Source of the DNA: Chthonomonas calidirosea
GTDB taxonomy: Bacteria > Armatimonadota > Fimbriimonadia > Fimbriimonadales > Fimbriimonadaceae
Assembly: GCA_945882415.1 (NCBI GenBank)
Contig: CAMCWC010000004.1
Coordinates: forward strand, 124,001 to 188,000
DNA: 64,000 nt
Direction: 5' to 3'
In this document: positions 11,529 through 49,998 of the stretch, piece by piece
How positions within the stretch are numbered: position 1 is the first letter of the stretch
Layout of the letters: the number at the start of each line of letters is the position of its first letter
Notes under the pieces: generated by a model
Told to the model about the DNA's origin: nothing
Database searches by the model: none
Seen by the model: only the letters and a program-made list of their open reading frames with translations
Made by a program: the position numbers and the translations under genes

Positions 11529-11558
11529 GCGGGGGTTGAACAGAGGTTCAACCCCCGC
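11529..11558. terminator. Bidirectional hairpin terminator between araC-side small ORF and gpsA
   Basis: A perfect 13-bp stem (GCGGGGGTTGAAC with its complement) closes a 4-nt AGAG loop. It lies between convergent transcription units, just past the gpsA stop at 11566. U-tracts are weak on both sides. Confidence 0.7.
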
Positions 11559-42052: not shown

Positions 42053-42210
42053 CTGGTATTTCTGCTGGTCGGCTCTCTTCCCCCAACCCCCTTCTCTCGC
42101 TGGAGGCGAAAGAAGGGGGCTCGAGCTCGTTTGTTTTGGCTATGCGGGTCCTCATCCCCCGTCCCCTTCTCCATCGGAATGGAGAAGGGGCTCAAACGGG
42201 ACTCGGCTGG
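42053..42210. repeat. Double-hairpin extragenic repeat, copy 1
   Basis: Two consecutive hairpins: CCCCCTTCTCTCGC pairs imperfectly with GCGAAAGAAGGGGG, and CCCCTTCTCCAT (42163-42174) pairs perfectly with ATGGAGAAGGGG (42179-42190) around CGGA. The flanking words TTTCTGCTGG and CTCAAACGGGACTCGGCTG recur in the other copies. Confidence 0.8.
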
Positions 42211-44009: not shown

Positions 44010-44155
44010 TTTTGCTCGGCGGCTCTCCACCCCCCTCCTCTCGCTCGGAAGCGAAAGGAGAGGGCTCGAGATCGAAAGTTTCGGCTGTTCGTATCCTCAT
44101 CCCCCGACCCCTTCTCCATCGGAATGGAGAAGGGGCTCAAACGGGATTCGGCTGC
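44010..44155. repeat. Double-hairpin extragenic repeat, copy 2
   Basis: Same layout as copy 1 (42053-42210), with CTCTCGCTCGGAAGCGAAAG in the first hairpin and CCCCTTCTCCAT/ATGGAGAAGGGG in the second. Its right flank CTCAAACGGGATTCGGCTG matches copy 1. The 43977-44394 gap contains only copies 2 and 3. Confidence 0.8.
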
Positions 44156-44192: not shown

Positions 44193-44346
44193 AGATTTCT
44201 GCTGGACGGATCTCCACCCCCAACCCCCTCCTCTCGCTCGGAAGCGAAAGCAGGGGGCTCGAACTCGTATGTTGCGGCTGCTCAATTCCTCATCCCCCGT
44301 CCCCTTCTCCGTCGGAACGGAGAAGGGGCTCTGAGATTTCCGCTGC
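44193..44346. repeat. Double-hairpin extragenic repeat, copy 3
   Basis: Shares TTTCTGCTGG at the left edge and both hairpins with copies 1-2. The second stem is compensated (CCCCTTCTCCGT pairs with ACGGAGAAGGGG), so base pairing is preserved although the sequence changed. Confidence 0.8.
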
Positions 44347-46502: not shown

Positions 46503-47489
46503 ATGTTTCTTGCGGCGCTACTCGCTTCTGGTCCGATCGTGATTGCCCACCGCGGCGCGTCTGCGGAACTACCCGAGCACACGCTGGCGGCTTATACGCG
46601 GGCGATTGACCTTGGCGCAGACTTCATTGAGCCAGACGTCGTGATTACCAAAGACGGCGTTCTGATCGCTCGGCATGAGAACGAGATTTCGGGCACGACG
46701 GACGTAGCGGCGCACCCGGAATTTGCTGATCGAAAGGTCACGAAGGAGATCGACGGGGCCAAGATTACGGGCTGGTTTACGGAGGACTTTACGCTGGCCG
46801 AGCTGAAGACTTTGAAGAGTCGCGAGCGGTTGCCGCAGGTTCGTCCAGAGAGCGCGAAGTCGGACGGGAAGTTTGAGATTCCTGCGCTGAAGGAAGTGCT
46901 GGAGCTGGTGCGGCAGAAGAACGAAAAGCGCCGCAACCCGGTGGGGATTTATCCCGAGACGAAGCATCCGTCTTACTTCCGCAAAATCAACTTGCCTTTG
47001 GAGGAGCCGCTGGTGAAAATTTTGGCGGAGTTTGCTTACGACGAGAAGTCGCCCGCGTTTATTCAGTCGTTCGAAGTTGGGAATTTGAAGTGGCTGAAGG
47101 AGAAGACGAAGGTCCGGTTGATTCAGCTGGTTACGAACGGCGGGAAGCCGGAGGATGGTTCGGTCACTTATGCGCAGATGCTGAGTAACGATGGGCTGAG
47201 CGCGATTTCCACCTATGCGGCGGGAATTGGGGTGGAGAAGTCCTTGGTGATTCCGGTGAAAGATGGCGCATTAGCACCGGCTACTGATTTGGTGAAGCGA
47301 GCGCATGACGCGAACCTGCTGGTCCACATCTGGACGCTGCGGCCGGAGAATCTGTTTTTGCCAAAGAGCTTGGCAGGTAAGCCAGAGGAAGAGCACCGGG
47401 CTTTCTTGAATGCGGGGATCGACGGCTTCTTTTCCGACGCACCCGGACTGAGCGTCCGGGTGCGGAATGAGTGGCTAGCCCAGCGGTGA
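46503..47489 (+). CDS. Glycerophosphodiester phosphodiesterase
   Basis: 328-aa GDPD-family enzyme that hydrolyses glycerophosphodiesters to glycerol 3-phosphate. Catalytic-site strands are IAHRGASAELPEHTLAAY and FIEPDVVITKDGVLIARHE, with late residues WTLRPENLFLP and DGFFSDAPG. The N-terminus MFLAALLASGP is hydrophobic but short, so export is uncertain. It resembles the GlpQ-type (large) GDPDs. It converges on the beta-mannosidase gene with a 15-nt overlap. Confidence 0.92.
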   Translation: MFLAALLASGPIVIAHRGASAELPEHTLAAYTRAIDLGADFIEPDVVITKDGVLIARHENEISGTTDVAAHPEFADRKVTKEIDGAKITGWFTEDFTLAELKTLKSRERLPQVRPESAKSDGKFEIPALKEVLELVRQKNEKRRNPVGIYPETKHPSYFRKINLPLEEPLVKILAEFAYDEKSPAFIQSFEVGNLKWLKEKTKVRLIQLVTNGGKPEDGSVTYAQMLSNDGLSAISTYAAGIGVEKSLVIPVKDGALAPATDLVKRAHDANLLVHIWTLRPENLFLPKSLAGKPEEEHRAFLNAGIDGFFSDAPGLSVRVRNEWLAQR

Positions 47490-49922
47490 TCGGGTGAAGA
47501 TCACTGGGTGAACGCCGGCGAGCGATCTTGCTTCGATCTTGGTGAGGTCACCTTCGCACATGGTGTGGATGAATCCAGCATGGGGGATGGTGATGACGTT
47601 CATGTCGAACGGGCGAGTGGCTCCGTTTAGGGTGAGCATGAGGTCGACGGTGGGCTGAGTCACCTGGATGGTGACGACATCGGCATCGTCGGCTCTCGAG
47701 ACGGTGATCGGCGCGGGTTCGGCGAATCGCGCGTTCTTCGGCTCTGCCAGGAGGCGGAAGGTGCTTGATCCGGTTCCGGACTGGGCGTAGACGATCACGT
47801 CGGGGACGCTGAGGCCGTGCACGGAGAACTCTCCGAGCTTCCGTCGCTGGTTCGCGCCGAGTTCGAACTCGAAGTCCTTGCTATCGAGCACTTCGCCAGT
47901 TTGCAGGTTGTGCGCGGAGACGGTGACTTCGTCGGCGATTTCCTCGCGGCTATCGTTGCAAACGTAGACCTCGATGAGGTCGTTGTTGCGGACGAGGGAG
48001 ATGAGGACGTCGTCGTAAAGGCGTTCTAGCTCGTAGGCGAGGGCCTTTGGATTAGCCGCGCTATCGAAATAGGCCCAGCTTTGCACGGGCCAGATGTCGT
48101 TCATTTGCCAGATGAGGGAGCCTCGGCAGAATTCGGCGCGTCGATAGTGCTCGACTCCGTGCCGGAGGGCGTCTCGCTGGTTTAGCTGGCTGTAGTACAC
48201 CCAGTCGCCGACGTTCTTGCTGACCGGATAGTGGAGTTCGACGTAGCCGACATAGGTTTCGTAGCCCTTGCCGGTCTTGTCGTGCCATCGGTAGACCGGA
48301 TTGCGGTAGTTCTCTTTTTCGGCAGGTTTCCCGATGACCTCATTCCATACGGCGAGGGAGCAGGAGCTGGCAAAGCCGTATTCGCTGGAGAACCGGCCGT
48401 CTGACTCGGAGTAGAAGCGCCAATCGCCGCGACCGTGCCAGACGTCCCAGTTGTGCTGGTCGCCATAGCCGCCGGCGTTGTCTCCGCTCCATCCGCCCTG
48501 GGCCTGGGGCTCGGGGCTGGTGCCGATGGGGCTGGACGAGATGTAACCTCGGCCTGGATCGAACTGGTTCACCGCTTCGGGCAGGGTTTTGAAGTAGAGG
48601 TTTTCGCCGTAGTAGCGAGGTGGGTGGTTTGCGGCCGGTCCCCACTTTTGCTCCCACATTTGGTGGTTTTCGTTGTTGCCGCACCAAAGGGCCAGGCAGG
48701 GGTAGTTACGGAGGCGCTTGATGTTTGCCTTAGCTTCTTCGGCGATCTTTGCTTGCCACTCTTCGTCATCGGGGTAGTAGCCGCAGGCGAAGGGGAAGTC
48801 TTGCCAGACCATGATTCCGGCAGCGGAGCAGGCTTCGTAGAAGGCGTCGGCTTCGTAAAGTCCGCCGCCCCAAATTCGGAGCATGTTGCAGTTCAGGCCC
48901 TTGGCGTCCCAGACTTTGCTTTCGTATTGTCGAACGCTGATGGCGCTGGGGAAGGAGTAATCGGGAATCCAGTTGGCGCCGCGGGCCCAGATTTTTTCGC
49001 CGTTGATCTCGAACTCGAACGACTCGCCCCATTGGTCCTTCTCTCTTAGGAGCTTTGGACTGCTGAAGCCAACGGTGAGAAGTTGGATGTCGTGGACATC
49101 GTTGTTCTCGGAAAGTACGGCGGTAAGGTCGTAGCAGGTTGGATCGTCGGGGTGCCAGTAGGAAACCGAATCTTTCGGAACCCGAATGACCTCGGTGCCT
49201 TTCCAGCCGATTTCGTGCTCGGGACCTTCGAGAGTGAAGGCGAATTCACCGGTGCCATCTTGTTCGGTTTCCGCCCAAACCTTGATGGTTTCGCCGTCTT
49301 CTTCCCATCGGAACCAGACGTCGGTGATTCGGGCGTTGAACTCGAGGAGGACAACGGGCTTCCAGATTCCGCAGGAAACGAGCCTCGGGCCCCAATCCCA
49401 GCCATACATGCATTGGGCTTTTCGCACGAAGGCGCGCTCGTCAAACCTCTCTTTCGGATCGGCCAGGCCTTCTTTCGCGAAGTAAGCATCTCGGATTTCG
49501 TTGCCCACTTTGATGGCCGATTTGAAGTCGATTCGGAGTTCATTCGTGCCCTCGACGAGTTGTTCGGTTACGTCGATTTCGAGCGGGATGAACATGTTCT
49601 CGCTCTTGCCGATTTCGGTGCCGTTAAGGGAAACGGTGGCGATGGTGTCGAGGCCTTCAAAGCGCAGGACGCGGTGCTTGAAGTCAGAAGGGGACCAGTT
49701 GAAAGTGGTTCGGTAGCTCCAGTCTTCTTGGTCTACCCACTGCACGCCGATCTCGTGCATTTTCTCATGCGGATCGGGGATGATGCCGTTCGACATGAGG
49801 TCGAGATGGACGTGTCCGGGGACCACGGCGGGCAGCCATTCTGCCTTCGAGTATCCGATGTCTTTTCCTTCCGTGGATGATTGGATGAATTCCCAGCCAG
49901 CGTGCAGTACGGTCCTTTCCAT
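47475..49922 (-). CDS. GH2 beta-mannosidase
   Basis: 815 aa with the beta-mannosidase organisation: jelly roll (VLHAGWEFIQSSTEGKDIGY), immunoglobulin-like domain, then TIM barrel with acid/base Glu in WCGNNENHQMW and nucleophile Glu in SSEYGFASS. WQDFPFACGYYPDD and SLIWQMNDIWPVQSW are family blocks. No signal peptide, so probably cytoplasmic, cleaving imported manno-oligosaccharides. A palindrome covers its -10 and start codon (49920-49946). Confidence 0.92.
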   Translation of the reverse strand: MERTVLHAGWEFIQSSTEGKDIGYSKAEWLPAVVPGHVHLDLMSNGIIPDPHEKMHEIGVQWVDQEDWSYRTTFNWSPSDFKHRVLRFEGLDTIATVSLNGTEIGKSENMFIPLEIDVTEQLVEGTNELRIDFKSAIKVGNEIRDAYFAKEGLADPKERFDERAFVRKAQCMYGWDWGPRLVSCGIWKPVVLLEFNARITDVWFRWEEDGETIKVWAETEQDGTGEFAFTLEGPEHEIGWKGTEVIRVPKDSVSYWHPDDPTCYDLTAVLSENNDVHDIQLLTVGFSSPKLLREKDQWGESFEFEINGEKIWARGANWIPDYSFPSAISVRQYESKVWDAKGLNCNMLRIWGGGLYEADAFYEACSAAGIMVWQDFPFACGYYPDDEEWQAKIAEEAKANIKRLRNYPCLALWCGNNENHQMWEQKWGPAANHPPRYYGENLYFKTLPEAVNQFDPGRGYISSSPIGTSPEPQAQGGWSGDNAGGYGDQHNWDVWHGRGDWRFYSESDGRFSSEYGFASSCSLAVWNEVIGKPAEKENYRNPVYRWHDKTGKGYETYVGYVELHYPVSKNVGDWVYYSQLNQRDALRHGVEHYRRAEFCRGSLIWQMNDIWPVQSWAYFDSAANPKALAYELERLYDDVLISLVRNNDLIEVYVCNDSREEIADEVTVSAHNLQTGEVLDSKDFEFELGANQRRKLGEFSVHGLSVPDVIVYAQSGTGSSTFRLLAEPKNARFAEPAPITVSRADDADVVTIQVTQPTVDLMLTLNGATRPFDMNVITIPHAGFIHTMCEGDLTKIEARSLAGVHPVIFTRSPLG

Positions 49923-49946
49923 GTCGCTTCATTATGAAGCGACATG
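49920..49946. promoter_or_regulatory. 27-nt palindrome over the -10 and start codon of the beta-mannosidase
   Basis: CATGTCGCTTCAT (49920-49932) and ATGAAGCGACATG (49934-49946) are perfect complements around one T. On the minus strand, CATAAT sits 8 nt before the ATG inside the dyad. This would be an ideal repressor operator or a hairpin hiding the start. Confidence 0.6.
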
Positions 49947-49998
49947 ACTTCGAAAGTCCCCGCGCATATTTGCGTATACAACCCGGATTAGCTAGCAG

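Follow-up and report, generated by a model that had tools for sequence, protein, structure and literature searches.

Leaderless mRNAs, in which the -10 region adjoins the start codon, are described in Deinococcus-Thermus (PMC12340547) and in Mycobacterium tuberculosis (PMC3898074). Their promoters carry a TAnnnT-type hexamer a few nucleotides before the ATG, which forms a positional peak over many genes. Another relevant process is template switching, a documented route from imperfect to perfect inverted repeats (PMC7202029, PMC8794818). In such quasi-palindrome correction, the dyad is perfect in one species and imperfect in the other, and differences in one arm restore the complementarity. 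A further comparison is provided by the operators of LacI/GntR-type repressors that overlap the promoter, where an inverted repeat lies over the -10 box and the start. The locus considered here, the start of a beta-mannosidase gene, resembles each of these systems in part.

The gene belongs to a Fimbriimonas-like armatimonadote with a genome of 3.36 Mb. The window, which denotes the whole stretch of 64,000 nucleotides that was analysed, covers the gene together with its neighborhood (Table 1). The M20 peptidase gene is codirectional and located 76 nt upstream, and the GDPD gene is convergent and located downstream. The rest of the neighborhood, read from the translations, is ordinary and includes a NADH dehydrogenase subunit and ATP synthase subunits. 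No regulator gene adjoins the beta-mannosidase among the neighboring translations inspected, as the sequence-only reading had already stated. The nearest relative, a pond MAG (G014, apparently JAIXQR010000002.1; below, the sister), has the same gene order and a beta-mannosidase protein that is 95% identical. Just past the stop codon of the gene, within the terminal part of that convergent GDPD gene, there is an 11-bp perfect dyad (window 47438-47464), which is identical in the sister and is a possible terminator.

The dyad at the start consists of CATGTCGCTTCAT-T-ATGAAGCGACATG and is exact at 49920-49946. On the minus strand, the site reads ...GACTTTCGAAGT CATGTCGCTT CATAAT GAAGCGAC ATG GAAAGGACC, and both the CATAAT hexamer (49936-49931) and the ATG (49922-49920) lie inside the symmetry. 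The initial description of a 27-nt perfect palindrome with 13-nt arms over the -10 and the start codon is exact in sequence and coordinates. Dyads with 13-bp arms and a loop of 1 are expected at ~0.002 per 64 kb, or 0.11 per 3.36 Mb genome, under a Markov model of order three whose parameters come from 400 kb of the genome, on which the dyad counts rest, with the 13-bp value extrapolated from 8-bp arms. For a named place, the observation exceeds this prediction from composition, and the earlier judgement that a chance dyad exactly here is unlikely holds in that sense; across many windows, one such chance dyad will be expected to appear. Longer perfect dyads (17 and 16 bp) are also present in the window and are terminator-like. 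A separate hairpin element, CCCCTTCTCC...GGAGAAGGGG, occurs in three copies in the window (42163-42190, 44108-44135 and 44301-44328) and has no copies elsewhere in the genome at ≤1 mismatch.

Table 1. Features at the start of the beta-mannosidase gene, in window coordinates.
Feature	Position	Strand	Remarks
27-bp perfect dyad, 13-bp arms, central T (A on minus strand)	49920..49946	.	unique at ≤3 mismatches
Putative -10 hexamer CATAAT	49931..49936	-	8 nt before start codon; 6/6 identical in sister
Block upstream of dyad, GGTTGTATACGCAAATATGCGCGGGGACTTT	49953..49983	-	29/31 identical in sister; single copy in genome
GH2 beta-mannosidase	47475..49922	-	815 aa; Pfam Glyco_hydro_2_N2 E=8e-57 and Mannosidase_ig
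ATG start codon of beta-mannosidase	49920..49922	-	outermost 3 nt of dyad; aligns with orthologous protein starts
Intergenic region, 76 nt, between M20 peptidase gene and beta-mannosidase	49923..49998	-	holds the predicted promoter; gene order same in sister

The conserved element at this start is probably an ordinary leaderless promoter with a predicted transcription start, and the regulatory role of the palindrome is unproven, since the dyad is single in the genome and broken in the nearest relative. A hexamer of the form [T/C]AnnnT is located 5-10 nt, mostly 8 nt, before the start in 19/19 of the closest loci. In the relative L012, CATAAT itself recurs at 8 nt before the start, without the dyad. 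The proposal that CATAAT acts as the -10 element is supported by this recurrence and by a position kept across the genus. The same arrangement is visible across the lineage: TAnnnT forms a peak at 6 nt ahead of the first ATG, a position that it occupies in 7+14 genes over 400 kb of this genome and in 20 genes over 320 kb of the sister, against a background of ~1-3 genes per position further upstream. Within 5-10 nt before the first ATG, the hexamer is found in 52 of 279 genes (contigs C1 and C4 here, contig C4 in the sister); a Shine-Dalgarno-like motif precedes 49 of the same 279 genes, and the two groups have zero overlap. The positional peak over many genes is shared with the described leaderless promoters, but the CATAAT of the beta-mannosidase has C in place of the first T of TAnnnT, and its spacing is 8 nt in contrast to the lineage peak at 6 nt, with a transcription start that is predicted from the sequence. 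Many genes of this lineage seem to be expressed without a leader, and a by-product of the analysis is sequence evidence for wide leaderless promoter use in Fimbriimonas-like Armatimonadota; the literature search on leaderless genes in Armatimonadetes returned nothing relevant. Such wide use would change the reading of dyads near starts, because the sequence immediately upstream of the ATG would often be promoter DNA and not mRNA.

The site in the sister reads CGTACCGCTTCATAATGAAGTGACATG, in which 9/13 pairs are left. All four differences are one-sided, and the comparison revealed no compensatory changes in the 27-bp dyad. The identity of the dyad to the sister is 23/27 (85%), next to 83% for intergenic DNA and 83-92% for promoter flanks in the same genome pair; by this measure the dyad is no better kept than ordinary intergenic DNA or promoter flanks. 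The control terminator-type dyads at window positions 11529, 19727 and 56327 carry 5, 5 and 9 substitutions, respectively, and retain 13/13, 15/16 and 17/17 pairs in the sister, where pairing is kept via paired changes. Within the 27-bp dyad, the inner 13 bp (inner part, CTTCATAATGAAG) are identical in the sister and 17 bp are kept with one change, and conservation does not extend to the outer arms. The preservation of the inner part may be explained by promoter constraint, which alone is expected to conserve these 13 bp in ~1 in 4 cases (our own estimate from the identity rates of the genome pair). None of the 25 orthologous starts examined, namely the imperfect site of the sister and 24 others, carries the dyad, and the conservation looked for before orthologous beta-mannosidase genes is thus lacking. 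An unrelated case is L016, the orthologue in the congener G006, where the interval 49-95 nt ahead of the beta-mannosidase start is occupied by a perfect palindrome of 47 bp, with 23-bp arms and a loop of 1; neither its sequence nor its position corresponds to the 27-bp dyad. The block upstream of the dyad, which contains CGCA-N4-TGCG, is better kept in the sister than the dyad itself and is a possible -35 region or regulator site. As a shared motif it was rejected, with one copy only in the genome.

The best explanation, held with confidence barely above an even balance, is that the leaderless promoter is conserved, and that the perfect dyad is specific to the lineage and arose by chance or by a template switch, without a dedicated function. 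From the spacing of 8 nt between CATAAT and the ATG, transcription would start at the ATG or within ~2 nt of it, and the upstream arm would not be transcribed from the beta-mannosidase's own promoter. The perfect symmetry centred on the -10 box would be lineage-specific, with a mutational origin as the simplest account: either chance, or a template switch in which one arm of a shorter quasi-palindrome served as the template for the other. No dedicated function would be required for the dyad. The template switch is suggested by the distribution of the sister differences, since 3/4 of them lie in a four-base stretch of the upstream arm, where every one of the three creates a pair here. Both the perfect and imperfect states in two species and the one-arm differences restoring complementarity are shared with quasi-palindrome correction. 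Unlike in that process, the direction of change is unpolarised here, with no outgroup near enough, and the history may equally have begun with an ancestral perfect dyad that decayed in the sister. The four further differences from the sister just upstream of the dyad (CGAA vs ACCG) also count against this explanation, as they are not accounted for by a single template switch. A further point against it comes from one distant congener, L011, in which GTCG and CGAC flank the -10 box at a different spacing.

The low chance expectation (~0.11 per genome) and the location over the -10 box and the start, a place well suited to a repressor site, likewise count against an origin without function and favor the main rival, an operator private to this gene. 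A repressor dimer would bind the dyad and block RNA polymerase until its release by a sugar, and the regulator would be encoded elsewhere and control solely the beta-mannosidase here; taken jointly, these claims are possible but doubtful. The position is ideal for such a site, the inner 13 bp are identical in the sister and 17 bp differ by one change, and the genome encodes 12 LacI-family matches, the sole one on the same contig being ~119 kb distant. However, the conservation of the inner part is expected in ~1 in 4 cases from promoter constraint, the outer arms are unconserved, the other orthologues have no dyad at the start, and an adjacent regulator gene is absent. The full dyad has no second copy in the 3.36 Mb genome at ≤3 mismatches, which is also the outcome of the genome-wide check proposed with the sequence-only reading, and with a single copy the dyad was rejected as a repeated mobile element. 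The 19-bp core gave two further matches at 3 mismatches, compared with 1 match for a control pattern. Both were rejected as operator sites, because they fall in reading frames: the first inside the frame of a TerC-like membrane protein, the second at the end of the frame preceding an ftsZ-like gene (names from translation). The scan of ten loci around LacI-family genes revealed no similar site, only matches to 12 bases with 2-4 mismatches, which is the chance level. Known LacI/GntR-type operators resemble this site in that an inverted repeat covers the -10 box and the start, but the case here is an odd-length 27-bp dyad at one site, without an adjacent regulator and with unconserved symmetry. 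Neither conserved symmetry before orthologues nor further sites at related genes, as sought for an operator, were found. The earlier proposal of an operator for a sugar-responsive repressor fails the tests that were proposed with it, since the dyad has no copy elsewhere in the genome and no conservation before orthologues. As a regulatory claim, the palindrome is of little weight, being a single, unconserved case.

At the RNA level, the 27 nt fold with -17.3 kcal/mol (z -7.4), and Rfam gave no match in the window. This strong fold, together with the codirectional M20 gene 76 nt upstream, speaks for a hairpin that hides the start in M20 peptidase readthrough transcripts and leaves solely the leaderless mRNA to be translated. 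Such a mechanism is improbable, as the site of the sister folds to merely -7.0 kcal/mol with a helix that ends short of the ATG, and its 9/13 remaining pairs come without compensatory changes. Moreover, the start-hiding hairpin suggested in the sequence-only reading is unlikely because transcription from the gene's own promoter is expected to begin close to the ATG, which would leave the upstream arm out of the mRNA, as the promoter position and the lineage -10 peak suggest. The stable hairpin, ~50 nt past the M20 stop codon, could also be considered as the site at which transcription of the M20 peptidase gene terminates, which is very improbable: the T tract is absent, the terminator scan made no call, and the pairing is lost in the sister, unlike that of the terminator-type hairpins. 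As an intrinsic terminator, the dyad was rejected for its missing T tract. A combined role, with one palindrome serving at the DNA level as a repressor site private to the leaderless gene and at the RNA level as the structure hiding the start in readthrough RNA, is scarcely credible.

A better operator candidate than the 27-bp dyad is provided, because of its identity in the sister, by the 10-bp dyad CTATGGGCCAGAAATGGCCCATAG, located outside the window (L131 13328-13351, contig C4 193328-193351). This dyad adjoins, on the upstream side, the TACACT -10 box of a leaderless-type gene, which is itself followed by a YajQ-like gene.
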